The position numbers were made by a program, and so were the translations under genes. Below the pieces are notes generated by a model that saw nothing but the letters and a program-made list of their open reading frames with translations, searched no databases and was not told the origin of the DNA. Below, in pieces: positions 22,529 to 44,686 of a stretch of 64,000 nt of DNA (position 1 is the first letter of the stretch; every line of letters begins with the position of its first letter). Source of the DNA: Haloplanus salinarum (GTDB lineage Archaea > Halobacteriota > Halobacteria > Halobacteriales > Haloferacaceae); NCBI RefSeq assembly GCF_024498175.1, contig NZ_CP101823.1, positions 1,302,001-1,366,000 of the forward strand. The letters run 5' to 3'.

Positions 22529-24295
22529 ATGAAAGATCAATCGCTTCTGGAACGGGTATGGGAGTACTGTTGGCAACTCGACCGCCACACTAGGAACGCT
22601 CTCCGGATGCGCCCGACCGCACTCCTCGACTATTCGGACCTGACGCCGGAGGAGCGGGAGTTGGCCGAGAGACTCGCCACCGACGGCGGTCGCGACGAGG
22701 GGGAACAGGCGGCCGGCGGCGAGGGTGGCGGGGGTAATGACGATGGTGATGACGGGTCGGCGTTCGATGTCGGCGGCCAGTACGGCCGCCGGCAGAAGAT
22801 CGGGTTGGTCCTGGGCCCGTTGTTGTTCGTGGCGATCATGCTCGTGCCGACCCCCGAGGGATTATCGACAGGCGGGCAAGCAGTCGCCGCGACCACGGCG
22901 TGGGTGGCAGTGTGGTGGATCGGCGAGGCGATCCCGATCCCGGCGACATCACTGTTGCCGATCGTGTTATTCCCGCTTACCGGAGCACTCGACGTGGACG
23001 CGGCTACCGCACCATACGCTAATGATCTGATTTTCCTGTTCATGGGTGGGTTCTTTATTGCGATGGCGATGCAGCGCTGGGATCTCCACCGGCGCATCGC
23101 GCTCCGGACGATCCGGGTGATCGGTACCGGCCCGGAGCGCATCATTCTCGGGTTCATGGTCGCGACGGCGTTCCTCTCGATGTGGGTCTCTAACACCGCG
23201 ACGACGATGATGATGACACCCATCGGGCTCGCCGTGATCCTCCAGACGAGCGATATTATCGACCGGACCGGCGGGGACGTCCCGACCGCACAAGGCGAAT
23301 TCAAGTTCGGTACAGCGTTGATGCTCTGTATCGGCTATTCGGCCTCTGTCGGTGGCGTCGGGACGATCATCGGGACGCCGCCGAACCTCGTGCTGGTCGG
23401 TGCGATCGACGAGACGTTCAATCAGACGATCACGTTCGCCCAGTGGATGCTCTATGGCGTCCCGATTGCTGCCCTCGGGGTCGGGATCATCTGGGTGTAC
23501 GTCACTCGGTTCATCATCCCTCCGGAGATGGACAGCCTCCCCGGGGGTATGGATGTCATCGACGAGGAACTCGACGCGCTCGGATCGATGACGCGCGAAG
23601 AGAAACTCGTTCTCGTTGTCTTCACCGGGACGGCGGCCGCGTGGATCTCACGATCGTTCGTCCTCCAACCCTTCATTCCCGGTATCGCCGACAGCATGAT
23701 CGCGATTGCCGCCGCGCTGGTGCTCTTTCTGATCCCCGCTCGCGAGGAGGACGGCTCCTTTACTTTCCTGCTCGACTGGGAGACCGCCGTCAATATCCCT
23801 TGGGGGATCATCCTCCTGTTCGGTGGCGGGCTCTCGATCGCCGCCGGGTTCCAGGAAACCGGCCTCGCCGAGTGGATCGGTGGCCAACTCGGCGGTCTTG
23901 AGGGTGTCTCGATCGTGCTAGTTATGTCCGTCGTCGTCCTATTGACTATATTTATGACCGAAGTCACGTCAAACACCGCGACGACCGCGATGTTGATGCC
24001 GATCATGGCGTCGCTGGCGGTCGGACTCTCGGTTCACCCGTACGGGATCATGATCGCCGCCGCGACCGCCGCCTCCTTTGCGTTCATGTTGCCCGTTGCG
24101 ACGCCTCCAAACGCCGTCGTCTTCGGCACGGGATACATTTCCATGCCACAGATGGCCAAAACCGGGTTCGGACTCAACATCATAGGGATCTTCCTCGTGA
24201 TCCTACTGGCAATGACGTGGCTCCCGTTGATCTGGGGGATCTCACTCACTGAAATCCCCCCGTGGGCCGGGATGGTGGCTCCCGTGGTGTTCTGA
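22529..24295 (+). CDS. SLC13/DASS-family anion:sodium symporter
   Basis: A 588-residue permease. The two DASS sodium-site motifs are visible as SNTATTMMMTPIG and SNTATTAMLMPIM, with GVGTIIGTPPNLVLVG between them and MLPVATPPNAVVFGTGY near the C-terminus. These proteins import dicarboxylates, citrate or sulfate with sodium. An unusual 90-residue soluble N-terminus includes a Gly/Asp-rich linker (EQAAGGEGGGGNDDGDDGSA). It is monocistronic and divergent from the acyltransferase gene. The substrate cannot be set from sequence. Confidence 0.9.
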   Translation: MKDQSLLERVWEYCWQLDRHTRNALRMRPTALLDYSDLTPEERELAERLATDGGRDEGEQAAGGEGGGGNDDGDDGSAFDVGGQYGRRQKIGLVLGPLLFVAIMLVPTPEGLSTGGQAVAATTAWVAVWWIGEAIPIPATSLLPIVLFPLTGALDVDAATAPYANDLIFLFMGGFFIAMAMQRWDLHRRIALRTIRVIGTGPERIILGFMVATAFLSMWVSNTATTMMMTPIGLAVILQTSDIIDRTGGDVPTAQGEFKFGTALMLCIGYSASVGGVGTIIGTPPNLVLVGAIDETFNQTITFAQWMLYGVPIAALGVGIIWVYVTRFIIPPEMDSLPGGMDVIDEELDALGSMTREEKLVLVVFTGTAAAWISRSFVLQPFIPGIADSMIAIAAALVLFLIPAREEDGSFTFLLDWETAVNIPWGIILLFGGGLSIAAGFQETGLAEWIGGQLGGLEGVSIVLVMSVVVLLTIFMTEVTSNTATTAMLMPIMASLAVGLSVHPYGIMIAAATAASFAFMLPVATPPNAVVFGTGYISMPQMAKTGFGLNIIGIFLVILLAMTWLPLIWGISLTEIPPWAGMVAPVVF

Positions 24296-24646: not shown

Positions 24647-26002
24647 CCCCGCCCCACCGTGGGCGGGGTTGAAGCCGACACTCGCTGCCACAATCCACGG
24701 ACTATTAACTACCTCTACTATCTATTGAAACTCGTGGCAGACGGCTACCTGAGGCGTACCGCAATCACCCGTCCTATCCTCACCGACGAGCAACAGGACT
24801 TGCTCGATGTCACCATCAACGAGTGGAAAGATGCCTGTAACATCAGCAGTCGCATCGGATGGGACACAGGTGAGACGCGGAAAACCTACCTCCAAGACCT
24901 CGCCTACGACACGGTGTTGGAGGAGACACACCTCGGGAGTCAGCACGCAATTCTCGCCACCCATCAGGCTGCAGCCGCACTCGATGGTGTCGACGCAATC
25001 GAAAACCTTGATGAACACTACAAAACGTCCCGACCGGAGTTCACCAGTAACACGGTGAAATACGATACCCGGACGATGACGCTGTTCGATGACGGGTCTG
25101 TGTCGCTTTCTACCGTCGAGGGTCGGATTCGGTGTGACCTGAACCTTCCCGACGAAGAAGACGGGTATCAACACGAATACCTCACCGATGACGAGTGGGA
25201 AGTAACAGAGTCTACGTTATCAAAGCGTGATGGCGAATACTACCTGCACCTCGGGTTTCGCAAAGACAAGCCCGAGAAACAGGTTGAAACACAGGGTGAC
25301 GACGAGGACAGGACAGTTCTCGGCGTTGACCTCGGTATCGTCAACATCGCTACCACCAGCACAGCGCACTTCGCATCAGGGAGAGAACTCAGGCACCGAC
25401 ATCGAGAGTTCGAGCGGATTCGCGGTAATCTCCAGCAGACTGGTACACAATCCGCCCATCGGACAATTCGGCAGATGAGCGGTAGGGAATCACGGTATCT
25501 CCGTGACCACCTCCATCAAGTCGCTAACCAGATTCTCGAAGAAGCACGAACACACGACTGTGAGTACATCGCTTTCGAGAATCTGAAACACATCAGGGAG
25601 CGTGCGCCGCCCGTCAAAGAGTTCCACCAGTGGGCGCACCGGCAACTCGTTGACCTCGTGGAGTACAAAGCGGAAGCCGAGGGGATTAGCGTCGAGTTTG
25701 TAGACCCGAAAAACACGAGTCGGCGGTGTCCCGAATGCGGGCATACGAGCAAGGGGAACCGAGTGCGACAGGCGGAGTTCGAGTGTGAATCGTGCGGTGC
25801 AACTCAGAATGCAGATTACGTGGGTGCGAAGAACGTTGGGTGGCGGTACGTCTGTCGCGGGCTACAGTCCTCGCGGCGGACGGGCGACAGTCAACTCGCC
25901 CTGAAGTCAGGAACGGTGACGCCGAATCGGGGATTCGTCCCGTCCGACTAACGCCGGCAGAGGTCGAGTTCACTGACAAGCCCCGCGCCACCGTGCGCGG
26001 GG
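24647..26002 (+). mobile_element. IS1341-type element (TnpB only)
   Basis: The element is framed by two related hairpins that share the loop CACCGT: CCCCGCCC-CACCGT-GGGCGGGG at 24647-24668 on the left and CCCCGCGC-CACCGT-GCGCGGGG at 25981-26002 on the right. It encodes only tnpB and no tnpA, so movement would need a transposase in trans. Exact cleavage sites are not determined. The right hairpin probably lies at the end of the guide-RNA scaffold, which in such elements overlaps the 3' end of tnpB. Confidence 0.75.
24734..25951 (+). CDS. tnpB: TnpB RNA-guided nuclease, intact
   Basis: From a GTG at 24734 this encodes 405 residues, the usual TnpB size. The RuvC triad is complete: Asp199 (LGVDLGIVN), Glu282 (AFENLKHI) and Asp361 (NADYVGAKN). 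A zinc finger with CPEC (332-335) and CESC (351-354) lies between the last two. Upstream in-frame codons extend to 24659 but run through the left-end hairpin, so I prefer the GTG, where the family N-terminus ADGYLRRTAI begins. TnpB cleaves DNA next to a target-adjacent motif, guided by RNA made from the element's right end. Confidence 0.92.
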   Translation: MADGYLRRTAITRPILTDEQQDLLDVTINEWKDACNISSRIGWDTGETRKTYLQDLAYDTVLEETHLGSQHAILATHQAAAALDGVDAIENLDEHYKTSRPEFTSNTVKYDTRTMTLFDDGSVSLSTVEGRIRCDLNLPDEEDGYQHEYLTDDEWEVTESTLSKRDGEYYLHLGFRKDKPEKQVETQGDDEDRTVLGVDLGIVNIATTSTAHFASGRELRHRHREFERIRGNLQQTGTQSAHRTIRQMSGRESRYLRDHLHQVANQILEEARTHDCEYIAFENLKHIRERAPPVKEFHQWAHRQLVDLVEYKAEAEGISVEFVDPKNTSRRCPECGHTSKGNRVRQAEFECESCGATQNADYVGAKNVGWRYVCRGLQSSRRTGDSQLALKSGTVTPNRGFVPSD

Positions 26003-32737: not shown

Positions 32738-33139
32738 TCATCGATTCTTCATCCCGTATCCCCATCGCTGGAGCACAGCCTCCGGAGTCGTCCCCTCGCC
32801 GCCGGCTACCAACATTGCCTCGACGACGTCCGTCTTGTAGATGGCTTCGTCGAATCGATCTTCGACACTGTCCATCGTTTCTTCGATCAACTCCTCCGTA
32901 GCGGACTGGAGGAACACTGGTTGCTGATTTCGACCCTGCTTGACCGAGTCGCGCCGGTATTTGTAAGGGAGCGTCTGAGTCTGGGTCTGCGGTCGGGGCG
33001 TTGTCTCCCTCTCTTCCGCAGTCGATGATTGGGATGGCTTCTCGTCGTCTGCCGGCGCGTCGTTTCCGTCGGGCATCTCGTCGGACTCGTCCAGCGGGCT
33101 GTCGTCTGCAAACGGATCGTCGCCAGCACCGGACTTCAT
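32738..33139 (-). CDS. ParA-partner protein (putative ParB/centromere-binding or accessory protein)
   Basis: A 133-residue protein. The first 55 residues are acidic and disordered (DDPFADDSPLDESDEMPDGN); the second half is helical (QSATEELIEETMDSVEDRFDE then AIYKTDVVEAMLVAGGEGTT). Its ATG overlaps the parA stop (ATGA on the minus strand), the usual position of the small partner gene in plasmid parA operons. No canonical ParB motif is visible, so the partner role is inferred from position. The C-terminal helices could form a ribbon-helix or dimerisation domain. Confidence 0.65.
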   Translation of the reverse strand: MKSGAGDDPFADDSPLDESDEMPDGNDAPADDEKPSQSSTAEERETTPRPQTQTQTLPYKYRRDSVKQGRNQQPVFLQSATEELIEETMDSVEDRFDEAIYKTDVVEAMLVAGGEGTTPEAVLQRWGYGMKNR

Positions 33140-33975
33140 GCTGGAGCCTCCACGGTCTTTCGCAGGTGATCGGCGAGTGTCTCCAAGCGCTCCAGCGTCT
33201 CTAGTTCGTAGTCCCTCCGTCTCTCCCGATGTTCCTCGACATACTTGAACGCGGAGCACTGCTGTCGCCAACACCCCTCGAAGAGCGACCCACGCTCTTT
33301 CAGTATCACCGGGATGTCGTACTCACGTGAGCGCAGCTCGTCGAGCATGTCCTGTTGGTCGTTGGTCCCTTTGAATCGGTTTGGGACGATAGCAAGCACG
33401 CCCACGTTGATGTCGAGGTTCTCCTCGAGCCCGGGGACGAGATCCTCCAGTCCGTCGACCGACTTGCGCCCCTTCCCGGACGGTTCGAACGGGACGAGGA
33501 GCGACCGCGTGGTGTGTATAGCGTTATACAATTTAACGTCCGCCGTCGCTGGTGGGTCCACGATCAGTGTGTCGTATCGGTCGTGGACGTCGTTCTCTCG
33601 GAGGACACGAAGCAACTGGACGTTCCGATTCCAGTTCTCGCCGAAGTCGTTGGCCTCCTCTTCACGCCTGGCGAGATGCTTGTTGAGACGTTCGAGGCTG
33701 TTGTGAGCGGGGATGACGTCGACCTCCTCACTGGATTCGATGAGGTCCTCGAAGGGGCCCCGCTTCCGTTCGACCATATGCCGAACCAGCGAGTCGGCTT
33801 TGGGATCGTCCCTATGTTCGCCCACGTCCAAGAGGTGCGAAACCGATGCCTCCTGTGGATCCAGGTCCACGACGAGCACGTCCCGACCGTCCCGTGCGTC
33901 GGCGACTGCCAGATTGGCCGCGAGCGTGGATTTGCCCACCCCACCGGCCTCCGAGTATGTCGTGTAGGCTAACAT
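33136..33975 (-). CDS. parA: ParA-family partition ATPase
   Basis: A 279-residue ParA/Soj ATPase. The deviant Walker A is AGGVGKST (residues 10-17) after MLAYTTYSE, followed by VLVVDLDPQEASVSHLL (Walker A' region) and TLIVDPPATADVKLYNAI (Walker B). It lacks an N-terminal HTH, so it is of the short plasmid (type Ib) or chromosomal kind. ParA moves replicons along the nucleoid with a centromere-binding partner. The ATG at 33975 is preferred over 33990. An iteron array lies about 45 bp upstream and may be its centromere and/or operator. Confidence 0.92.
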   Translation of the reverse strand: MLAYTTYSEAGGVGKSTLAANLAVADARDGRDVLVVDLDPQEASVSHLLDVGEHRDDPKADSLVRHMVERKRGPFEDLIESSEEVDVIPAHNSLERLNKHLARREEEANDFGENWNRNVQLLRVLRENDVHDRYDTLIVDPPATADVKLYNAIHTTRSLLVPFEPSGKGRKSVDGLEDLVPGLEENLDINVGVLAIVPNRFKGTNDQQDMLDELRSREYDIPVILKERGSLFEGCWRQQCSAFKYVEEHRERRRDYELETLERLETLADHLRKTVEAPA

Positions 33976-34017
33976 GAGCGTAGCAAGCAACGGGTAGATT
34001 ATAAAACTAAGTCAGAC

Positions 34018-34079
34018 GGTATAGCTAGGAAGTATAGCTAAATGGTATAGCTATACAATACGACTATAAGGTATAGCTA
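34018..34079. repeat. 13-bp-spaced iteron array upstream of parA
   Basis: Copies of (G)GTATAGCTA start at 34018, 34031, 34044 and 34070: steps of 13, 13 and 26 bp. A degenerate copy (AATACGACTA) occupies the missing 34057 position. Each unit contains the near-palindrome TATAGCTATA. The array begins 43 bp upstream of the parA start. Direct repeats at this place are typical parS centromeres that also act as the par operon operator. The rest of 34080-34385 shows no gene. Confidence 0.75.
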
Positions 34080-34385
34080 TTCTAATGAACGAGATAATAT
34101 AACTATTCGATCCAGTCATTCAGTACAGTGGGGGCGTCCGTTCGTGAGTCGAGCGGACTACTATTGGGAGCGTTCGGGAACGTTCTGAGTGAAGTCCGTC
34201 AACCGTTTTCGGTACTACTCGGTCGGGTGAGGTCGTATGCGGTGCCAGTTGGATGGGCTTCGGCGACTCTGCTGAAGACCAGTAGGTCACGGACTGAGTG
34301 TGCGGATAGCGTCGGCTCGGATCCGTAACTGTCGGAAAAATCGAGATGGTTGTCTGTCGCTGTGAACGACAGCCGTATCTCGGTA

Positions 34386-34592
34386 TTACTGCCGGACGAC
34401 GTTCGCCGCGCGAGGCCCTTTGGGTGAGGACTCGATATCGAACTCGACTTCGGTACCTTCCGTGAGGTCCTCGCCGCCAACGTCCTCCATGTGGAAGAAG
34501 ACGTCTTCGTCGTCGTCGAGGTCGCCGTCGTCAGTCGAAATGAAACCGTAACCGCCTGTGTCGTTGAAGAAATCAACCGTACCGTTTGCCAT
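34386..34592 (-). CDS. cspA: Cold-shock-domain protein
   Basis: A 68-residue single cold-shock domain. MANGTVDFFNDTGGYGFIST contains RNP1-type GYGFI and the following DVFFHM is RNP2-type; EGTEVEFDIESSPKGPRAAN VV completes the five-strand barrel. Such proteins bind single-stranded RNA/DNA and act as RNA chaperones. It lies between the par and Orc1 genes, with an upstream TATAACC near 34620. Confidence 0.95.
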   Translation of the reverse strand: MANGTVDFFNDTGGYGFISTDDGDLDDDEDVFFHMEDVGGEDLTEGTEVEFDIESSPKGPRAANVVRQ

Positions 34593-34746
34593 TACATACG
34601 AACGGAGGGGCGGCTACGGTATAACCTTTCCGAGGGTCGAGTACCACGACTCCATTCGCAGGCCTGCTGAAGTATCAGTTCAGCCGCGGAGAGATGAAAC
34701 AAGGAGGTCTGGATGAGCGTTATAGCCTCGCTAGTCGGCACGAGCG

Positions 34747-35190
34747 TTAGATTTGGCCGACGACGTCTGCGAACGCGAAGTTATCCCGTGCTTCAGTAAT
34801 TTCGATCCGAACCCGGTCCCCTGGACTGGTGTTCTCGACGAATACGACGTAGCCAGGAGGAATCCGTGCGATACCATCCCCTTTCTCACCGATATCCTCG
34901 AGTTCGACTTCTCGGATCTCGCCTTCATCTACAGGTGGCTGATCCAACACCTCACTGTTATTCGGTTGCTGCTGTGTCCCCGACACGTGACCCGTAGCAC
35001 CGGATGAATTGCCACCCACCTCGACGGCTCCGACCTCGCTAGCGTCGAACAACGCCACTCTGTATCTCTTCCCCTCCTCCAACGATCCTACCTCGATTTC
35101 CTGCTCTGGGATCTCCAAGGTGTACGACCCATTTCGGCTCGTTACCCGACTGGTGAACATGCACAGCAACGAATCTAAAAACTCCATCAT
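34747..35190 (-). CDS. TRAM-domain RNA-binding protein
   Basis: A 147-residue protein. The C-terminal 60 residues (EGEIREVELEDIGEKGDGIA RIPPGYVVFVENTSPGDRVR IEI...) form a TRAM domain, an OB-like RNA-binding fold common in archaeal stand-alone proteins. The N-terminus has a short hydrophobic, Cys-containing start (MEFLDSLLCMFTSR) and a beta-rich segment, with a Gln/Asn/Ser linker before the TRAM domain. Archaeal TRAM proteins act as RNA chaperones, like the nearby cold-shock protein. The ATG one codon later (35187) is also possible. Confidence 0.88.
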   Translation of the reverse strand: MMEFLDSLLCMFTSRVTSRNGSYTLEIPEQEIEVGSLEEGKRYRVALFDASEVGAVEVGGNSSGATGHVSGTQQQPNNSEVLDQPPVDEGEIREVELEDIGEKGDGIARIPPGYVVFVENTSPGDRVRIEITEARDNFAFADVVGQI

Positions 35191-35682
35191 CGACGGTATC
35201 CCTCCGCACGATTAAAAACGGTGTACGGTTTTGAAGGTACCTTTCTTGGGTGGACGAGCAAGGTAACAAAGAACAGCGCACAGACCCGAGTACCTCCTAC
35301 AGTTCGCGATCATCCGCATCGTGAACGAAAGAGAAACTGTTGACGCTCGGAACACGGCAGTATCGGTTCCTACCTGCTCCGAACGATCGACGGGGGTGTC
35401 AGAAGCCAGGATCGAATGTAGAGGGTTACCACTCGTCGAAACACATCGATAGAGCTGTGTCTCGGTGTTAACTAACAATGGATATTGCCACCGCCATCTG
35501 TTGGTTAAAGACGCCGCGGTATTTCCGGAACTTCCGAAAAGCCCCCCTCTCCCCAGATCCACAAATTCCGCGAATTGAGTTCCTAACGAGCAGTATTTGA
35601 TGACGGCACGATGGTATAACGGATGCTTCCGGAAACCACCCGCACACGTTTTTGTGGATCGCATCGAAAACCTCTCTCGTCT
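35191..35682. other. Candidate replication origin region beside orc1/cdc6
   Basis: A 492-bp gene-free region directly upstream of the Orc1/Cdc6 gene, the usual place of an archaeal origin. It holds the inverted repeat at 35468-35508 and two TTCCGGAA motifs (near 35525 and 35633). A TTTTTG-containing AT-rich box at about 35650 fits a TATA element for a near-leaderless orc transcript. Origin function is inferred from position. Confidence 0.5.
35468..35508. promoter_or_regulatory. Replication-module inverted repeat, site 1 (upstream of orc1/cdc6)
   Basis: TTAACTAACA-N21-TGTTGGTTAA. Half-sites are 31 bp apart centre to centre. The same arrangement recurs at 38219 and 42333. It lies 174 bp before the Orc1/Cdc6 start. 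It could be an ORB-like origin element or an operator. Confidence 0.7.
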
Positions 35683-36711
35683 ATGATCCACGATGCTCGC
35701 GTCCTCCGGGCTGGGTTCGTCCCTCGAGAAGTCGAGCATCGCGACGCCGAAGTCAACCACCTTTCCAGCGTTCTCGAGCCCATCACGAACGGGGAACCAG
35801 CCGACACAGCCATCGTCACCGGGCCCAGCGGCGCCGGCAAGACCTGCATCTCGAAGTTCGTCACTGAACGGCTCCGCGAGGAGGTCCTCGACGTCCAGAC
35901 GACCTACGTCAACTGCTGGCGAAACTACACCCGGTTCCGTACGCTCTACCAAATTCTCGACGACCTCGGCGCCACCATTGACATCCACCGACAGTCGACG
36001 CCCCACGACGAACTCGTCGATCGGCTTCAGCAGCACGACGGCCCGCGAACGGTGGTCATCCTCGACGAGGTCGACCAGCTGGAGGACCCCAGCGTCATTT
36101 ACCATCTGCACAGCCTCCCACAGTTCGCAATCATCTGTATCGCGAACAAGGAAGAGGAGCTGTTCGGCCGCGTCGACGACCGCCTCGTGAGTCGGCTCCG
36201 TTCGAGCGAACACGTCCGGATGGACAAATATCACGACGAGCAACTTTTCGACATTCTGAGTGCGCGTGCGAAATGGGGGCTCGACGAGGACGTCATCACC
36301 GACGACCAGCTCTACCGGATCGCCGATGCAGCCGCCGGCGACGCTCGCCTCGCAATCGGCATCCTTCGAACAGCTGCCAGCAAGGCCGACCGCGAGAACC
36401 ACGAGCACATCACCGACGGCATCCTCCTAGACGCCGCCGAGAATGCCCGAGCCCAGATCAAGCAGAAGAGTCTTGACTCGCTCACGCCGCACCAGCGCGT
36501 CGTCTACGATATCGTGCGGGAGCACGGTCCGGTCGGGCCGAGCGAGATCCACGAGCGCTATTCCGAGGAGGTCGATGACCCCCGGACGAAACGGACTGTT
36601 CGGACGTACCTTTCGAAGATGGCACAGTACAACCTTCTCGAAGCGGAGGGAACGAGTCGGGATCGAGAGTACTCGCTCGTCGATTCGGCAGCGGCGTCGC
36701 CGATGCAGTGA
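35683..36711 (+). CDS. Orc1/Cdc6-family replication initiator
   Basis: A 342-residue AAA+ initiator. It has Walker A GPSGAGKT (47-54), Walker B VVILDEVDQL (124-133), sensor/ADP-contact region GDARLAIGILRTAASKAD and a C-terminal winged helix (LTPHQRVVYDIVREHGPVGP then SEIHERYSEEV). Length is a little below chromosomal Orc1 proteins, typical of plasmid or accessory paralogs. It should bind origin repeats and load MCM. The ATG at 35683 is preferred over one at 35623. It is the marker gene of the replication module. Confidence 0.93.
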   Translation: MIHDARVLRAGFVPREVEHRDAEVNHLSSVLEPITNGEPADTAIVTGPSGAGKTCISKFVTERLREEVLDVQTTYVNCWRNYTRFRTLYQILDDLGATIDIHRQSTPHDELVDRLQQHDGPRTVVILDEVDQLEDPSVIYHLHSLPQFAIICIANKEEELFGRVDDRLVSRLRSSEHVRMDKYHDEQLFDILSARAKWGLDEDVITDDQLYRIADAAAGDARLAIGILRTAASKADRENHEHITDGILLDAAENARAQIKQKSLDSLTPHQRVVYDIVREHGPVGPSEIHERYSEEVDDPRTKRTVRTYLSKMAQYNLLEAEGTSRDREYSLVDSAAASPMQ

Positions 36712-36836
36712 CCGGAAAGGGTCGCGTACACACATCCCGCAGGTAGTCAATCTAGGCGGAAGTTCTATGTATTGGTATCTTGATAGAGATAGCTAGAAGC
36801 GAAAAACGACAGCGCGAGTAAGAGGCAATTTCAATA

Positions 36837-37514
36837 ATGAATGAGTTAATGGATGCCACCGCTGCGAAAATTGTGTTAGCAGTCCAGCGTGGCGATTCTA
36901 TCAACCGTATCGCGAGCAAGATCGACGTCTCGTACTCGTGGGTGTACGACTGGGTTGAGCGGTTAGATGATGCGGAGGTTATCGCTAATACCGATAATGG
37001 AATCCAGATCGTTGATCACGAGATGCGCCAGCAGTACGCCGAGATGATGGCTGCGTTGTACAGCCGCGACACCATCGCTCAGAAGGACGCGTACGTCATT
37101 CCACACTTCGCCGGAATGGAGTTCGCGTACACGGAAATTGACGCGGCATACGTCTGGACACACGGCGGCTTTCAAATCGCACGGAGCCACGACGACTATC
37201 CGGTGTTCATCGAAGTGCACGACCGTGACATCGAACGGTGGATTGCGTTCTTCGAGCAGTTTGGCGTCGACACGACGATCAACGAGCGCCCGGACGCCAG
37301 CGACGTCAACGGGAATGTTCACTATGTGTTGTTCCCGAAGACCAACGGTATCGACGCCGAGTGGGTCGACGGCAACCCCGCCATCCCGGTGGACGACGCC
37401 ATCGACCAGATGATGGAGAACCGCCCGGCGTACGAGCCCGCCTTGGAGATTATCGCCGACGAGTACGACAGGGATATCGGTGCGTCGCACCACAGCGCGA
37501 TGGGCACGACCTAA
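36837..37514 (+). CDS. Winged-HTH protein paired with a nucleotidyltransferase (putative antitoxin)
   Basis: A 225-residue protein. The N-terminal KIVLAVQRGDSINRIASKID then VSYSWVYDWVERLDDAEVI is a winged helix-turn-helix. The remaining 160 residues form a mixed domain (YVIPHFAGMEFAYTEIDAAY then VWTHGGFQIARSHDDYPVFI). It is followed 13 bp later by a nucleotidyltransferase gene, the layout of AbiEi/AbiEii-like or related toxin-antitoxin pairs. The antitoxin role is inferred from this context. A TATA-like TTGATAGAGATAG lies about 55 bp upstream. Confidence 0.72.
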   Translation: MNELMDATAAKIVLAVQRGDSINRIASKIDVSYSWVYDWVERLDDAEVIANTDNGIQIVDHEMRQQYAEMMAALYSRDTIAQKDAYVIPHFAGMEFAYTEIDAAYVWTHGGFQIARSHDDYPVFIEVHDRDIERWIAFFEQFGVDTTINERPDASDVNGNVHYVLFPKTNGIDAEWVDGNPAIPVDDAIDQMMENRPAYEPALEIIADEYDRDIGASHHSAMGTT

Positions 37515-37527
37515 CAGAGGCGATGAA

Positions 37528-38214
37528 ATGAGTCTTGCCGAGCGCCAATCCGAACTTATCGACACACACCGCGCGGTACAGGACGCCGAACTGCCGTATG
37601 TTCTCGTTGGCGGCTGGGCAGTTTCCGCGTTCCAAACCCGGTTCACGACCGATATCGACACCGTGATCCCGGACACTACACTCGACGACTACGACACTCT
37701 CCTTCGTGACCTCGGATACGAGAAACAGTTCGAGCAGGATGTCTCGAACGAGTACGATGGTCGAATGATCCAGTACGCGAAACCGGTCGGAGAGAACGAA
37801 GTCAAGTTCGAGGCACTCGTGGATGCGATGGGGTGTCGACAGACGGACGCAGAGTGGTCATATCGCTATCTCCACGAACACAGTACGATCGAATCACTCG
37901 ATGTCGCCGAAGGCCTCGACGGGCGAATCCCGGAACCGGCACTGTTGTTCGCGATGAAACTCCACAGCGGTCGGAAGGCCGATAGCCGTGACCTGGTCGT
38001 GATCAGTTTGCGTGCGGACTTCAACCGTATTGAGCGACACGTCCATCGTGGCGACCCCGAGAAGCTCAAGAGGCAGATCGAAATGGTGCTGGATCGACTC
38101 CAGCAGGAGGAGTTCGAAGACTCGTTCAAAGGTGTCTTCCGACAAGAAGAGCTGCCAGCAGACGCGATTAACAACCTTGTTTCGTTCCTGTCCGAGCAGC
38201 GAGATCAACTGTAA
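37528..38214 (+). CDS. Nucleotidyltransferase of AbiEii/MNT type (putative toxin)
   Basis: A 228-residue protein. LPYVLVGGWAVSAFQTRFTT DIDTVI contains the GG-W...DxD nucleotidyltransferase motif, with the third acidic residue likely in KFEALVDAMG. FAMKLHSGRKADSRDLVVIS matches the AbiEii/AbiGii-type C-terminal signature (Kx...R..KD..D). Family toxins transfer nucleotides to tRNA or proteins. It follows the wHTH gene after 13 bp. The pair sits between Orc1/Cdc6 and the RecA-like operon and may serve plasmid maintenance or phage defence. Confidence 0.82.
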   Translation: MSLAERQSELIDTHRAVQDAELPYVLVGGWAVSAFQTRFTTDIDTVIPDTTLDDYDTLLRDLGYEKQFEQDVSNEYDGRMIQYAKPVGENEVKFEALVDAMGCRQTDAEWSYRYLHEHSTIESLDVAEGLDGRIPEPALLFAMKLHSGRKADSRDLVVISLRADFNRIERHVHRGDPEKLKRQIEMVLDRLQQEEFEDSFKGVFRQEELPADAINNLVSFLSEQRDQL

Positions 38215-38218
38215 GATA

Positions 38219-38258
38219 TTAACCAACAGGCGACACGGAGCACCAGTTTGTTGGTTAA
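38219..38258. promoter_or_regulatory. Replication-module inverted repeat, site 2
   Basis: TTAACCAACA-N20-TGTTGGTTAA, perfect half-sites, 30 bp centre to centre. It lies directly after the nucleotidyltransferase stop and 167 bp before the RecA-like gene. Confidence 0.75.
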
Positions 38259-38384
38259 GTAACCAGCGCCGTCTGAACCCGGTCCCTAGAAACGTTCTCG
38301 GAAACAGTCGGAACAGCCGCAGAAAGTCGACGACAGAGGATGGGGCAGTATCTGTCTCATGTCTTCCCTGAAACGCGGAAGCGA

Positions 38385-38400
38385 CACGCCGCGGCTTATC
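38385..38400 (+). promoter_or_regulatory. Shared promoter box of the RecA-like operon
   Basis: CACGCCGCGGCTTATC; 15 of 16 bases match CACGCCACGGCTTATC upstream of polB (42477-42492). CTTATC would serve as a TATA box about 25 bp before the ATG at 38425, giving a leaderless transcript. Confidence 0.55.
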
Positions 38401-38424
38401 GGGACCGTGGACGACTAATCGAGT

Positions 38425-39360
38425 ATGGGTGAACACGCAACGTCGAACCGATTGGCGGTGGATCAGCCGACACGGGGCGCTGACCGCAATCGGTCCCTTG
38501 CTGACCAGGCCGATCCGGCTACGGACGAGATGCTGTTGCCGTCCCTCGACGACGGCATCACGCTGCTCGACGTCAAGGGAGGGCGCGGCGTCCCGATCCT
38601 GCAGTCGCTCGTACTCGACCATCTCCTCCTGCACAACGGGCCCGCCTTCTGGGTCGACGCAAATAGTCACGCGACGACGACGACACTCGCCCAGATCGCC
38701 CCTAGCCAGCGGTTGCTCGACCGAATCCGCGTGGCACGCGGATTTACCGCCTACCAGCACTACGGCGCCGTCTGTGATCTCCCGACGGCAGTGAACAAGT
38801 CGATCCAGATGTCCACCACCGACGCCGGGGCGGCCGGTCGAGGAGACCCGAGTCGTGACGAGGACACCTCTCACCACACGCCCGCCCTCATCGTCGCGCC
38901 GGCCGTCGACACCCAGTACCGCGCCGACGATACCCTCGGCGAGACCCACGCCAAAACCCTCCAGGCTCGAACGCTCACCCGATTGGCTTCCTACGCCGAC
39001 GGGTACGACGTTCCGGTGCTCGTCACCCGGGCGCAGCGCGACGGCTTCACCGAACCGGTCGCGACGGTCGCCGACCACCACCTGGAGTGCGAGCAGACCC
39101 GGATGGGGCCGCGGATCGTCGGCGAGGACTTCGAGACGCTCGTCTTTCCCGTCGACGACGGCGCGTACTACCAGACGACGTTCGCGTACTGGCGGCGGTT
39201 GCTCGCGGCGCGGGCCGCGCAGGTCGGCGCGGAACCGACGACGCCGGCGCCGACCCCGGAGGACGTCGGAACGGGCGTCACAGCCGAGAATGAGACCGTG
39301 TCGGCCACCGCGGACCCCCTGCTCGATGCGTGGACGGCGAGCGGTTCGGGAGGGCGGTAG
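38425..39360 (+). CDS. RecA/RadA-superfamily protein with degenerate Walker A
   Basis: A 311-residue protein with a RecA-like core: ITLLDVKGGRGVPILQSLVLD then HLLLHNGPAFWVDANSHATT, and later ALIVAPAVDTQYRADDTLGE and LTRLASYADGYDVPVLVTRA. The position of the P-loop reads GGRGVPIL where GxxxxGKT is expected, so the Lys-Thr pair is missing and ATP hydrolysis is doubtful. An acidic tail follows. The next gene starts 2 bases after its stop and the exonuclease overlaps that one, so the three form an operon under inverted-repeat site 2. A recombination-mediator role is inference. Confidence 0.68.
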   Translation: MGEHATSNRLAVDQPTRGADRNRSLADQADPATDEMLLPSLDDGITLLDVKGGRGVPILQSLVLDHLLLHNGPAFWVDANSHATTTTLAQIAPSQRLLDRIRVARGFTAYQHYGAVCDLPTAVNKSIQMSTTDAGAAGRGDPSRDEDTSHHTPALIVAPAVDTQYRADDTLGETHAKTLQARTLTRLASYADGYDVPVLVTRAQRDGFTEPVATVADHHLECEQTRMGPRIVGEDFETLVFPVDDGAYYQTTFAYWRRLLAARAAQVGAEPTTPAPTPEDVGTGVTAENETVSATADPLLDAWTASGSGGR

Positions 39361-39362
39361 CG

Positions 39363-39683
39363 ATGGGGCGCACGAACCCGACGTACCGAGACGCCCTCCG
39401 GGCCATCGAGGAGCGCTGGGCGGCGTTCCGCCGGGCACTGCGGCGTCGCGACCAGCCGCGATTCGACCGGCTGTTCGAGTACGCCCGCGAGCACGCCGAC
39501 GCGAGCGGGCTGATGAACCACCAGAACCCGCTGTTGCCGGCGCTGCTCAGTATCGATATCGAACAGGAGGCTCGCCTCGACGACCACGAGGAACGCCTGG
39601 TGGAGCTCGAGCAACGGCTTTCGGAACCTGTGGGCGAACAGCAGCAATCGTCCGCCGACGGTGACACAGGAGGTGTGGAATGA
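39363..39683 (+). CDS. Small coiled-coil protein in the RecA-like operon
   Basis: A 106-residue helical protein: YRDALRAIEERWAAFRRALR then RRDQPRFDRLFEYAREHADA, and a heptad-rich LDDHEERLVELEQRLSE. It resembles a haloarchaeal family of uncharacterised proteins found beside PolB-type polymerase genes (possibly DUF8156; name uncertain). It starts 2 bases after the RecA-like stop and overlaps the exonuclease gene by 4 bases (ATGA). It may bridge the two proteins. Confidence 0.72.
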   Translation: MGRTNPTYRDALRAIEERWAAFRRALRRRDQPRFDRLFEYAREHADASGLMNHQNPLLPALLSIDIEQEARLDDHEERLVELEQRLSEPVGEQQQSSADGDTGGVE

Positions 39684-40324
39684 CCGGGTCGACGACGATT
39701 GCCTTCGATATCGAAACGACGGGATTTCAGGCCGATGATGAACTCACAGTAGTTGGGTTCGACTCGGCGGTCTCGTCGCGAGTGTTTCTCCATACCGAAA
39801 CGGCACCACAAACAGGCCTCGCAGATCGGCTCAACGACACACTCCGGACACCGGTACAGCTCTCACTCCACGACAGCGAACAGGAACTCCTGAACGAACT
39901 GGCGACGTTTGTCACGTCGACACTCACCCAACGTGATGCAAAGCTCGTTGCGTACAACGGTGAGCGGTGGAACGGAGGATTCGACCTCCCGTTCCTTCGC
40001 ACACGGCTCTGTACGCACGGGATCGAGTGGCCGTTTGGCACGTTGCCATACGTCGACGTGATGGACGTCTTCGAGACACGCTTCAATACCAGTGAGGATA
40101 CCTTGGATGGCGTCTATGGCGAACTGATTGGTTCACGGTTGAACAACCTCGATCCATTCGACGATAGTGGAACGGCAGTCACAGCCTGGGAAGAAGGCGC
40201 GTATGAACGCCTTCTCACGCACAACGTCGCCGATATCCGACGAACAAGAGCGCTGATGGAACTCGCAGAACGATATTGCTCGAAATCGGATTTCTCGATG
40301 AAGTCACTCGAGCCAATCGTTTGA
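39680..40324 (+). CDS. DEDD-type 3'-5' exonuclease (RNase H-like)
   Basis: A 214-residue stand-alone exonuclease domain. Exo I is IAFDIETTGF (Asp/Glu), Exo II is LVAYNGERWNGGFDLPFL (Asp of FDLPFL), and Exo III is LLTHNVADIRRTRAL (Asp). Where DEDDy enzymes have a Tyr four residues before the last Asp, here the sequence is THNVAD with His nearby, nearer the DEDDh style. It resembles the proofreading domain of family-B polymerases. It overlaps the coiled-coil gene and shares the regulatory repeat with polB, whose own exonuclease motifs are missing. Confidence 0.82.
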   Translation: MTGSTTIAFDIETTGFQADDELTVVGFDSAVSSRVFLHTETAPQTGLADRLNDTLRTPVQLSLHDSEQELLNELATFVTSTLTQRDAKLVAYNGERWNGGFDLPFLRTRLCTHGIEWPFGTLPYVDVMDVFETRFNTSEDTLDGVYGELIGSRLNNLDPFDDSGTAVTAWEEGAYERLLTHNVADIRRTRALMELAERYCSKSDFSMKSLEPIV

Positions 40325-40512
40325 GGTCGCGAGTGAACGACCCTACTCTTCTCGCTGATTGCGGTGATGGAGTGGAGTGCAATAGGGACGACCACGCTGA
40401 TGAACGCCTACATCATGAGTCTACTAGTAGAGTAGCGCTGCAGACATGTATCACCAGCTGGATGCGCTCACCATTGCTGCGATCTACATCCACATACTGG
40501 GAGATTGCTTAG

Positions 40513-40851
40513 TCAGGGGTCAATCTGTGGTTCGCTGTTGAGCTCGCAGAGATATGCTATTGCGGCGACACCGACGTGGATTCCGTAGACGTAGTCATCG
40601 TCGCCGAATGCCTCTCGACCAGCCATTCGATGGGTTACTCCCTTGGTGAGTGATAGACGGATAGCCTCCTTGACGGCGGCTTCACCGGCGTATTCAACGG
40701 CGCCTCGAACGTACTCGTCGAAGTGACTATCTTGGTGGCCAGATGGCCGTGGATCAGCAGCTCGGTCAAGCGCGAGGGATACGACTTCTTCAATAGAAGG
40801 ATGTACTGGATTGCCAGTGTTCTCTTGGACACGATACACCTCACCAGGCAT
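40513..40851 (-). CDS. Hypothetical protein
   Basis: A 112-residue mostly helical, acidic protein (VHPSIEEVVSLALDRAADPR, FDEYVRGAVEYAGEAAVKEA then IRLSLTKGVTHRMAGREAFG, VYGIHVGVAAIAYLCELN). The last helix is hydrophobic but short. I do not recognise the family. A long frame on the opposite strand (40723-41103) is less acidic and probably spurious. The 40325-40512 and 40852-41141 gaps contain no clear gene. Confidence 0.55.
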   Translation of the reverse strand: MPGEVYRVQENTGNPVHPSIEEVVSLALDRAADPRPSGHQDSHFDEYVRGAVEYAGEAAVKEAIRLSLTKGVTHRMAGREAFGDDDYVYGIHVGVAAIAYLCELNSEPQIDP

Positions 40852-41141
40852 GGTGATGAATACGTCAGGCCATGGTATAAGCCCAACTGGAGTATGTGGG
40901 ACTCAAGCAAGGAGTTCGAGGATCAGCTTCGTAGGATCTGTTGGGTCGTTCTAACTGGGTTCTCTATATCTAATTGTCTTTACGGCCGACCGTTTGAACC
41001 GACTCCAAGAGAAGAAAGCGTACTCGAGTGTCGGTCTGTTCCGTTCTGTGGGACCCATCGTAGGTCCTTAGCGTACCGTTGTAGGTTGCGAAATGCGTTG
41101 TAGCCGGGTTGGAAGTGTAGGAGTCTTCCCTGCATTCTCGT

Positions 41142-41630
41142 CTACGGCGGATTTTCTGCGTCGTTGAGCCCTTCGAAGGTTCCGTTCGTGTAGGCGTAGC
41201 GCCACCGTTGGAGAATCGCTCGCGTGACCAGTGGGGCCTCACGCACAGTGATACAAGATGGCTCAACAGGACGACTTGGAGCATCAGGTGGTGGATGAAA
41301 GTGTCGTGTCGGTGCATCCGGTTTCGGATGACAGTCGAATCGAAAATCCCGCCCCTGGGTGTCCGTGTAGTGCACAGCGTAGTTCCCAGCCAAGCTCCAC
41401 CGAATATCTATACGCGCTGTTGATGCCGCTTCAACGCCGTCAGACAGGTCAACCGAAAGCGTCTGTGGGTTCAGGGGATCGTCCAGTGAAGCCTCCTCAA
41501 CCAGCGGCTCTTGATTGATGACCAGATCTCGGATCTCTCGTAACGCTCCGGCATCGATCGGTCCGAACACCTCTGCCTGTTCGGCTGGCTGACTATCCTG
41601 AGAAGGTTCCACATCCTCGTCGCCGGTCAT
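41142..41630 (-). CDS. TumE-like protein, putative toxin of a wHTH pair
   Basis: A 162-residue protein. The core ARIDIRWSLAGNYAVHYTDT then QGRDFRFDCHPKPDAPTRHF HPPPDA resembles TumE/DUF6516-type toxins, which share R-x-D-I...Y-x-x-H-Y and an H-P...H-F-H-x-P-P motif. Its start overlaps the stop of the upstream wHTH gene by 4 bases, as in a toxin-antitoxin operon. Family assignment is by motif from memory, so moderate. The C-terminus (VTRAILQRWRYAYTNGTFEG) is helical. Confidence 0.62.
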   Translation of the reverse strand: MTGDEDVEPSQDSQPAEQAEVFGPIDAGALREIRDLVINQEPLVEEASLDDPLNPQTLSVDLSDGVEAASTARIDIRWSLAGNYAVHYTDTQGRDFRFDCHPKPDAPTRHFHPPPDAPSRPVEPSCITVREAPLVTRAILQRWRYAYTNGTFEGLNDAENPP

Positions 41631-42241
41631 ACGACGATCGATGAGTCACTGTTACCATCGTCGTCAGTATTGGTGCCAGTGAGATGACCGGTGCGGGTTG
41701 CCTCAGCAATCGCGAGTGTCGCTTGTGCCAAGGCGAGGTTGCGGCGAGTGGTTTGCCATTCTCTGAGCAGCGCACCTTGGTCGCTGTCGGTGTCTTCGAT
41801 GTCCAGTTCCCGAGCGAGTTCCTCGGGTGAGTCAACATCGTATTCGGTACGCCAGTCCTGAATCTGTGCTTTCAGCTCGGCGATGCCAGATGCGATCTCT
41901 TCGGGTGTTCGTTCCGCAAGTAGCGACTGTGCATGCTCGGTGACGATACCCGTTTCTGACCGGCGGTACAGCGTCGTCTGGCCGTCCTGTGCTGTCGTCA
42001 CTTCACCGGAATCCATGAGCGTCCGCAGGTGCTTTCGTGCGGTCGTCGGCGAGACACGAGCACGATCAGCAATCTGTGCTGCAGACGTCGGATCGTAAGT
42101 CCGGCGAATGATTCCATAGACTCGTTCGAAGGGCGTCGTGTCCTCAACCCATTCCTCTTCGACCACGTCGTTTATGTCACGTTGTTCGGCACCGCCGTCA
42201 GGACGTACTCGGTTGGGTGGGGTCGTCTCCTCAGACATCAT
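41627..42241 (-). CDS. Winged-HTH regulator paired with the TumE-like gene
   Basis: A 204-residue acidic protein. Residues about 35-95 (FERVYGIIRRTYDPTSAAQI then ADRARVSPTTARKHLRTLMD SGEV) form an ArsR/TrmB-like winged helix; the C-terminal half is helical (ALLREWQTTRRNLALAQATL AIAEATRTG). This resembles haloarchaeal wHTH proteins of the DUF7342 type that precede such partners. It probably represses its own operon. It is divergent from polB, across the intergenic region carrying inverted-repeat site 3. An ATG one codon in (42238) is possible. Confidence 0.75.
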   Translation of the reverse strand: MMSEETTPPNRVRPDGGAEQRDINDVVEEEWVEDTTPFERVYGIIRRTYDPTSAAQIADRARVSPTTARKHLRTLMDSGEVTTAQDGQTTLYRRSETGIVTEHAQSLLAERTPEEIASGIAELKAQIQDWRTEYDVDSPEELARELDIEDTDSDQGALLREWQTTRRNLALAQATLAIAEATRTGHLTGTNTDDDGNSDSSIVV

Positions 42242-42332
42242 ATGCTAACCCACGGAAGGCAAGTATAATAATTCTCGGGCCAGTATATTGGTTTGTAATC
42301 CATCGGAACACGGAGTGTCTTCACCAACCATT

Positions 42333-42371
42333 TTAACCAACAAATACGACTATTCCAGAACTGTTGGTTAA
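42333..42371. promoter_or_regulatory. Replication-module inverted repeat, site 3
   Basis: TTAACCAACA-N19-TGTTGGTTAA, perfect half-sites, 29 bp centre to centre. It lies in the 294-bp divergent space, 91 bp from the wHTH start and 164 bp from the polB start. It is followed by ATTCCGGAAGTC, similar to ATTTCCGGAACTT after site 1. Confidence 0.75.
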
Positions 42372-42476
42372 GCCGAGATTCCGGAAGTCATCTTGGAAAA
42401 GACCACAGACACGCAAAATAGGACAAATACCCCGGTAGCGATGTCTTCGAAGTCGTCCTCTGAATTATGGAAACAC

Positions 42477-42492
42477 CACGCCACGGCTTATC
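42477..42492 (+). promoter_or_regulatory. Shared promoter box upstream of polB
   Basis: CACGCCACGGCTTATC, 15/16 identical to the box before the RecA-like operon. It is preceded by GGAAACAC, echoed by GGAAACCACC before the orc gene. CTTATC as TATA element predicts a transcript start about 20 bp before the ATG. Confidence 0.5.
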
Positions 42493-42535
42493 TAGGACTG
42501 AACCGTTTCGTTCAATCGAGACGTGACAATCCCAA

Positions 42536-44686
42536 ATGCCGTTCACAATCGATATCTTAGACGACGACCGCGTCTTGGAGTGGGAGGCAACCGCCGACGG
42601 CGCCGTCGTGACCGAGCGCGATGACTACACGCCACGCTTCTACGTCGCCGCTCGCGACCCTGATGCCGACCTCGACCTCACGACCATCCAGTCCGTGTAC
42701 GACCAGCACCCGGACGTCGTCACGACCGAGATGGTTACGCGACGCCCCGGCTTTCGACGGGACGAGGAGACCGTTCTCGCGGTCGACGTCGCCCACATCG
42801 ACCGCGTCGCCCCACTCGCCCGGCAAGCGCGCCAACTGTCGGACCATCCAGTCGGGGATCTCGTCTGCTTCAACGTCGACTTCTCGCGGGAGTTCCGGTA
42901 CTGTCTGGAGACCGGCGTCGATCCGACGCCGGCGAGCGAACTGTCGACGCTCCGGCTCGGCGTCCCGGTGACCGAAACGAGCGACGACGTCTACGGGGAG
43001 GTGTCCGTCGCCGGCGACACCGTCACCGGCTCGCCGACGGATCTCCTGACCGCCGTCCAAGGGGCGCTCGACGCACACGATCCGGACGTCCTGGTCTGCT
43101 CGACGAGCGAAATCGTTCCGACCCTGTACGAGATGGCGACCGAGGCCGGTGTCGACGACTTCTCGCTGAGCCGGTGGCCCGACGTCGACTACCAGCAGCT
43201 CGCGAGCCGGTCGACGTACTCGAGCTACGGTCGCGTCGGTCACTCTCCGGCGCGGTACAACGTACCCGGCCGCGTGATCGTCGACGAGAGTAACACGTTC
43301 TTCTACGGGGAGACGAACCTCGACGGCGTCCTCGACCTCGTGTCGCGCTCGAAGAAGCCCGTCCAGGAGCTCGCGTGGGCGTCGATCGGGAACGTCCTCA
43401 CCGCGATCCAGATCTGCGAGGCCCACGACCGCGGCGTCCTCGTCCCCTGGAACTCCTGGCGCCACGAGTTCTACAAGCCGATGGGGACGCTCCACGACGC
43501 CGACCGCGGCGGCTTCATCTTCGCGCCCGAGGTCGGCCGCCACGAGAACGTCCACGAACTCGACTTCTCCTCGTTGTATCCGAACATCATTCGTACCCGG
43601 AACGTCTCGCCGGACGTCATCCGGTGTGACTGCCACAGCGACCGCGACGACGTCCCCGGGCTCGGATACTCGATCTGCGACGAGCGGGGCTACCTCGTCG
43701 ACGTGCTACAGCCGATCATCGACGCGCGCGACGAGATCAAGGCGGCCATCCGTCGCGAGAAGGAACGGGACGACCCCGACGAGGACCGACTGACGGAACT
43801 CGAGGGGCGGTCGGGAGCGTTGAAGTGGATCCTCGTCGCCTGCTTCGGGTATCAGGGATTCAGCAACGCGAAGTTCGGCCGCATCGAGTGCCACGAGGCA
43901 ATCAACGCGTTCGCTCGCGAGATTCTGCTGACGGCGAAAGGGCGGCTGGAAGCCGGCGGCTGGCGGGTCGTCCACGGCATCGTCGACTCCATCTGGGTGA
44001 CCCCGGACCCCGACGTCGACGACGATGACCGCGATGACCTCGAGATGCTCGCGACGGCGATCACGGAGGACGTCGAGATTCGACTCGAACACGAAGCCCA
44101 CTACGACTGGGTGGCGTTCGTGCCGCGACGGGAGAGCGACGCCGGCGCGCTGACGAAGTACTTCGGCAAAGTGGCTGGCGACGGCGGGTTCAAGATCAGA
44201 GGGATCGAAGCCCGGCAGCGCTCGACCCCACCGTTCGTCGAGGCGGTCCAGCGGGACTGTCTCGAACGGCTCGACGCGACTCGATCCCCGGACGCCGTAC
44301 TCGACCGTCTTCAGGACGCGATCAAGCGCCTCCACGCTGGGACGGTGCCGGTCGAGCAACTCGTCGAACGGAATCGTGTCTCCAAGCCGCTGGAGGGGTA
44401 TACGCAGAACACGCGGAACGTGGCCGCGTTAAAGCGGGCTCGGGAGCAGGACCTCGCCGTCCACCCGGGACAGGATATCGAGTACGTGGTCGTCGACGAC
44501 GAAAAGACCTCGCGAGAGCGGGTTGCATTAGTTCACGAGGAGATCGGGTCGTACGATGCGTCGTACTACGAGACGCAACTCGTCCGGGCGATAGGGAGTC
44601 TCCTCTCTCCGTTTGGGTGGGATCGAACGGACATTCAACAGGAACTCTCGGGGGTCCGTGAGCCGGAGCTAACCGATTTCGGGTGA
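42536..44686 (+). CDS. polB: Family-B DNA polymerase, haloarchaeal plasmid type, exonuclease motifs lost
   Basis: A 716-residue family-B polymerase. Motif A is HELDFSSLYPNII (Asp343). Motif B is ALKWILVACFGYQGFSNAKF (Lys430), where the usual NSxYG reads ACFGYQG. Motif C reads VVHGIVDSIW instead of YGDTDS, keeping only the second Asp (Asp484). The N-terminal 330 residues hold no D-I-E Exo I motif, so proofreading is probably absent. Such variants are common on haloarchaeal plasmids; polymerase activity is likely altered. It is monocistronic, with the inverted repeat and promoter box shared with the RecA-like/exonuclease operon. Confidence 0.9.
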   Translation: MPFTIDILDDDRVLEWEATADGAVVTERDDYTPRFYVAARDPDADLDLTTIQSVYDQHPDVVTTEMVTRRPGFRRDEETVLAVDVAHIDRVAPLARQARQLSDHPVGDLVCFNVDFSREFRYCLETGVDPTPASELSTLRLGVPVTETSDDVYGEVSVAGDTVTGSPTDLLTAVQGALDAHDPDVLVCSTSEIVPTLYEMATEAGVDDFSLSRWPDVDYQQLASRSTYSSYGRVGHSPARYNVPGRVIVDESNTFFYGETNLDGVLDLVSRSKKPVQELAWASIGNVLTAIQICEAHDRGVLVPWNSWRHEFYKPMGTLHDADRGGFIFAPEVGRHENVHELDFSSLYPNIIRTRNVSPDVIRCDCHSDRDDVPGLGYSICDERGYLVDVLQPIIDARDEIKAAIRREKERDDPDEDRLTELEGRSGALKWILVACFGYQGFSNAKFGRIECHEAINAFAREILLTAKGRLEAGGWRVVHGIVDSIWVTPDPDVDDDDRDDLEMLATAITEDVEIRLEHEAHYDWVAFVPRRESDAGALTKYFGKVAGDGGFKIRGIEARQRSTPPFVEAVQRDCLERLDATRSPDAVLDRLQDAIKRLHAGTVPVEQLVERNRVSKPLEGYTQNTRNVAALKRAREQDLAVHPGQDIEYVVVDDEKTSRERVALVHEEIGSYDASYYETQLVRAIGSLLSPFGWDRTDIQQELSGVREPELTDFG

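Follow-up and report, generated by a model that had tools for sequence, protein, structure and literature searches.

A conserved 13-bp repeat array upstream of haloarchaeal parA genes as a candidate plasmid centromere

What does a cluster of short repeats, spaced 13 bp apart and lying just ahead of a parA gene, do in the haloarchaeon Haloplanus salinarum? A sequence-only reading of the 64,000-nucleotide stretch analyzed here (the window) had proposed a plasmid centromere that doubles as an operator. The appearance of archaeal centromeres has been listed as an outstanding question (PMC5120986), and we found no description of a haloarchaeal array of this kind or of a haloarchaeal plasmid centromere in the open-access literature, subscription papers being outside the scope of the search. 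The results below indicate that the array is very probably the cis-acting site, and a candidate centromere, of a partition cassette formed by ParA and a small partner protein. The relevant features of the window are as follows.

32738–33139, minus strand: partner protein of 133 amino acids, a candidate centromere-binding protein; its start overlaps the end of parA by 4 bp
33136–33975, minus strand: parA, 279 amino acids (Pfam AAA_31, 8e-20; CbiA, 1.9e-16)
33999–34012, minus strand: predicted parA promoter, BRE/TATA-like CTTAG-TTTTATAA, called from sequence, with a similar TATA position in about half of the loci compared
33999–34128, minus strand: 13-bp-period array, candidate centromere and operator, from the array fit and shuffles
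34018–34079, plus strand: core of the array, with four exact matches to GTATAGCTA at 34019, 34032, 34045 and 34071
35623–36711, plus strand: plasmid-type Orc1/Cdc6 gene situated 1.5 kb away from the array; most relatives are without it
42536–44686, plus strand: family-B DNA polymerase gene in a plasmid-like segment; also found near parA in a genome of another species, G289

Exact matching confirmed the four reported copies at steps of 13, 13 and 26 bp, their distance of 43 bp from the parA start codon (ATG at 33975) and the degenerate fifth unit at the skipped register position (34054–34066, 5/9 match). No other 9-mer reaches four copies inside 80 bp anywhere in the window and, with up to one mismatch, GTATAGCTA had 11 matches there compared to 2.6 expected, a count reached in none of 100 shuffles. 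The periodicity score at 13 bp was 32.3; 400 dinucleotide shuffles peaked at 8.0, and none of the other periods between 8 and 21 scored above 3.9. The register runs past both of the originally reported ends: the best-fit array (33999–34128) comprises ten units, four of them perfect and several degenerate, with a near-perfect unit at 34093–34105 (7/9) and a lower end (33999–34014) that is uncertain because it overlaps the promoter. With a fit score of 36.6, against 6.5 for the next best stretch, the array is unique in the window, and the exact 9-mer has only two more single copies elsewhere in the 3.45-Mb genome. A palindromic core had been claimed for every copy; all four do share TATAGCTA, including the 6-bp palindrome TAGCTA, but the full 10-bp palindrome TATAGCTATA is present in the third only (34046–34055). 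Two other readings were discarded: the array has no Rfam match that would indicate an RNA element, and no relative was found in viral contigs or phage records.

Comparison with the upstream regions of related parA genes, which the sequence-only reading had suggested as a check, revealed clear conservation, so the lack of conservation named there as a refuting outcome was not observed. We found ParA relatives in 231 plasmid records and in 243 of 391 Halobacteria genomes, and the loci compared here extend to ParA identities of ~39%, giving 108 distinct haloarchaeal parA-upstream regions. The strongest repeat lag was 13 or 26 bp in 101 of these 108 regions, with a mean self-match at lag 13 of 0.447 compared to a median of 0.239 (20 MAD) and echoes at 26, 39 and 52. 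Control DNA, taken either from beyond 330 bp upstream or from downstream, was nearly flat and had nothing notable at lag 13. Individual arrays comprise up to ~19 units. The repeat motif differs between classes of loci (TAGCTATAC in class A, to which the window array belongs when read in the parA sense, and GTTCATTA, TAGATnnGTnTCT, CAAATGTT, AACTgnntAGT and CTGTTACAG in others) while the period stays constant; the lag-13 signal against flat controls therefore reveals a period that is conserved where the sequence is not. Class A (r = 0.94) and class D show strong dyad symmetry, which is marginal in classes C, E and F and lacking in B, so a symmetric dyad was rejected as a general feature of the arrays. 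Because dyad strength varies by class, the constant element is the direct 13-bp repeat and not the palindrome.

We grouped the loci by a short segment of the partner protein that lies ahead of its first predicted helix. Six segments were distinguished (QxPxFL, RVPLFL, TVQLHLQ, RLTFFVH, QFFLR and ELHVR), each group having one 13-bp motif, with those of groups A and E related (r = 0.74). From the DNA motif alone, the partner segment class was predicted correctly at 81 of 82 loci (leave-one-out, five larger groups). Shared descent is the obvious confound and was controlled by matching ParA identity: motif correlations within groups were 0.67, 0.65 and 0.73, compared to 0.33, 0.33 and 0.42 for other pairs, at ParA identities of 50–60, 60–70 and 70–80%, respectively. 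Likewise, the partial correlation of motif with partner given ParA was 0.32 (0 of 999 permutations), and that of motif with ParA given partner was 0.14. This covariation is the pattern that a co-evolving protein and its DNA site would leave, and it falls short of proving binding. Because the repeat changes its spelling in step with the small partner protein, the array very probably serves as the handle for distributing these plasmids between daughter cells. In the three genomes for which two cassettes were fetched from different contigs, the cassettes of each pair differ in class (L080/L102, D/E; L060/L121, A/C; L079/L111, D/B), as expected if the classes correspond to incompatibility groups.

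The layout of the partner is common to the family: an N-terminal MKxGxGDDPFA peptide that is conserved in relatives, an acidic linker modeled at low confidence, and a domain at the C terminus. The overlap between its gene and parA is 1–4 bp in nearly all loci, 94 of which yielded a usable call of the partner, and the partner gene is thus probably co-transcribed downstream of parA. AlphaFold modeled the domain as an extended segment followed by helices at residues 79–96, 102–115 and 119–125 (pLDDT mostly >90), suggesting a disordered tail joined to a strand-helix-helix domain whose predicted order of elements is that of ribbon-helix-helix proteins. Homology to that fold was not borne out: searches of Pfam, NCBIfam and the PDB returned no known family, hhalign gave a probability of 4% against RHH_1, Foldseek found no significant structural match for the predicted fold, and profile matches among PDB chains at E ≤ 10 included no segregation protein. 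A ribbon-helix-helix fold was thus confirmed by none of these sequence, profile and structural comparisons. Across 120 genomes of the phylum, the family was seen solely in haloarchaea.

The other gene of the cassette encodes a Soj-like ATPase of the ParA/MinD superfamily, as judged from PDB matches to Soj and from the Pfam domains AAA_31 and CbiA. Its Walker P-loop, SEAGGVGKST (window 33925–33955), has alanine where the deviant Walker A motif (KGGxGKT/S) has its signature lysine, and the same substitution (SEAGGVGKT) is found in 103 of 107 haloarchaeal ParA relatives. An invariant Lys168 elsewhere may take over the role of the missing residue. Since the signature lysine is absent, we class the cassette as a variant, not a plain member, of Walker-type (type I) partition.

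Between the array and the ATG lies a BRE/TATA-like element, CTTAGTTTTATAA, which directly abuts the repeats and places TATA 30 bp ahead of the start codon, so that the parA transcript is probably leaderless. A TTTA[TAG] element 28–33 bp ahead of the ATG recurs in about half of the 108 loci, at exactly 30 bp in 40 of them. The array might therefore be a transcriptional operator and nothing else, with the partner or ParA repressing parA through it and the centromere located elsewhere; operons of this type are usually autorepressed, and the array adjoins the TATA box with a preferred spacing, which in class A puts the last half-site 20 bp ahead of TATA in 19 of 29 loci. We nevertheless consider this improbable, as the longest upstream arrays extend far past the promoter and plasmids with parA carry additional copies in other intergenic regions. 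Moreover, eight Haloarcula-type loci retain only two units at the promoter and carry an array of 12–16 units 90–160 bp downstream of the partner gene, away from the promoter, and because of these long downstream arrays we rejected a pure operator as the whole story.

On the Haloarcula plasmid pHH400, the downstream array was fitted with 20 units covering 23757–24016; it is absent from pNG700, where an IS6 transposase gene lies behind the partner. Both megaplasmids (pHH400 as L186 and pNG700 as L187 among our loci) have a tyrosine recombinase gene directly upstream of parA, at a distance of ~100 bp. The exact class-A pair TAGCTATACN4TAGCTATAC occurred 17 times in the 391 genomes, compared to none for the reversed control; 11 occurrences were upstream of parA, one was just downstream of a partner gene, three were elsewhere on a parA-bearing contig and two were left unassigned. 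Three loci (L169, L170 and L176) have intergenic class-A arrays of 2–5 units on the same contig as parA, at distances of 9 to ~245 kb, and most distal copies are likewise limited to 2–5 units. These remote arrays are possible secondary centromere sites.

The window spans bases 1,302,001–1,366,000 of a 3,450,905-bp single-contig genome (99.96% complete), so the cassette is chromosomal and not, as had been supposed, on a free plasmid. Its surroundings nonetheless resemble a plasmid: positions 32738–44686 hold parA, orc1/cdc6, the family-B polymerase gene and an RNase H-like gene, and a related block in reverse order is present in G289, the chromosome of which likewise carries both the cassette and homologues of the polymerase block. 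Apparently, and most naturally, the segment is an integrated plasmid-like element. Nearby, at 24659–25951, is an IS605 OrfB/TnpB-type gene with a Cas12f1-like TNB domain.

With a plasmid-type orc1/cdc6 only 1.5 kb away, the repeats could instead be iterons bound by a replication initiator, or Orc1-binding boxes of an adjoining origin. This is extremely improbable, since a relative of the window Orc1 was found near parA in only 1 of 17 context sequences, no such repeats lie upstream of orc1 in the window and the motif tracks the ParA partner. The annotated orc1/cdc6 gene of pHH400 lies 21 kb away from parA; it is probably cdc6K, to which the unique oriP of that plasmid has been genetically tied (PMC3936714). 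Replication iterons were therefore rejected, orc1 not being linked to the array in relatives.

The chromosomal location and the degenerate units inside the array also fit another reading, in which an integrated plasmid is decaying here and this copy no longer has a function. We regard this as rather unlikely: parA is intact and evolves under purifying selection (dN/dS of 0.057 against the chromosomal copy in G289), and the partner, the gene overlap, the promoter and four perfect units are all intact as well. Some of the selection may, however, have acted on free plasmids. The cassette in this genome has apparently been kept under selection. Active partition by the chromosomal cassette may still be vestigial, its array being partly degenerate. 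Decay of this one copy is compatible with a centromere function for the family, because it concerns only the chromosomal copy.

The interpretation of the array as centromere and operator of a ParA system is thus strongly supported by the conserved period, the motif that tracks the partner and the arrays downstream of the partner gene, but not in the plasmid location assumed for this copy. Under this interpretation, dimers of the 133-residue partner would bind adjacent 13-bp units in a row along the DNA, successive units lying ~86° apart around the helix, and the partner-coated array would form the nucleoprotein segrosome that acts as the centromere. With the TATA box lying directly against the array, we propose that the bound partner would also repress transcription of parA and its own gene. 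The N-terminal MKxGxGDDPFA peptide could then contact ParA-ATP on the nucleoid and so pull the replicons apart.

More broadly, the evidence somewhat favors the view that haloarchaea have a centromere class of their own. Such a class would combine a helically phased 13-bp array, a previously undescribed partner family known so far only from haloarchaea and a recognition code held in one short partner segment; its at least six specificities would serve as incompatibility groups of co-resident plasmids, and some chromosomes would have kept it after plasmid capture. If true, this would provide a centromere for a cassette present in the majority of Halobacteria genomes examined, and also carried by plasmids of laboratory strains (pNRC200, pHME132 and pHH400). 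It would likewise provide a partner–DNA recognition code that can be read off the sequence, and a means of predicting which plasmids are incompatible.

Several known systems share parts of this design. Like pSM19035 delta/omega and TP228 ParF/ParG, the haloarchaeal cassette has a Walker-type ParA, a small partner with a disordered N terminus (here predicted) and tandem repeats at the promoter, which in those plasmids are both centromere and operator. The small ribbon-helix-helix partners of bacterial type I systems use shorter repeats of 7–8 bp, such as the heptads of pSM19035; unlike these, the haloarchaeal period is 13 bp, the partner has no detectable homology to theirs and ParA is without the signature lysine. 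Tandem iterons of a similar period, 12 bp, form the centromere of the type III TubRC system of pBtoxis, which in contrast employs a tubulin-type motor and a winged-helix adaptor. Among archaea, the partition cassette of the Sulfolobus plasmid pNOB8 is likewise built around ParA and has its site upstream. Its AspA-ParB-ParA system comprises three proteins, and the winged-helix AspA binds a single 23-bp palindrome and spreads from it (PMC5120986), whereas the haloarchaeal cassette has two proteins and an extended array of direct repeats. The chromosomal SegAB system of Sulfolobales is similar in having a small DNA-binding partner whose gene overlaps that of the preceding ParA-type ATPase, with binding sites located directly ahead of the ATPase gene (PMC12284271, PMC5120986). 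SegB is a ribbon-helix-helix protein, and its site is also 13 bp long, the palindrome TCTAGASTCTAGA, found both near and far from segAB (PMC12284271, PMC5120986). The haloarchaeal partner matched no segregation protein in the PDB-chain profile search, and whereas SegB sites are isolated palindromes dispersed over the chromosome, the haloarchaeal sites form a tandem array phased at 13 bp.
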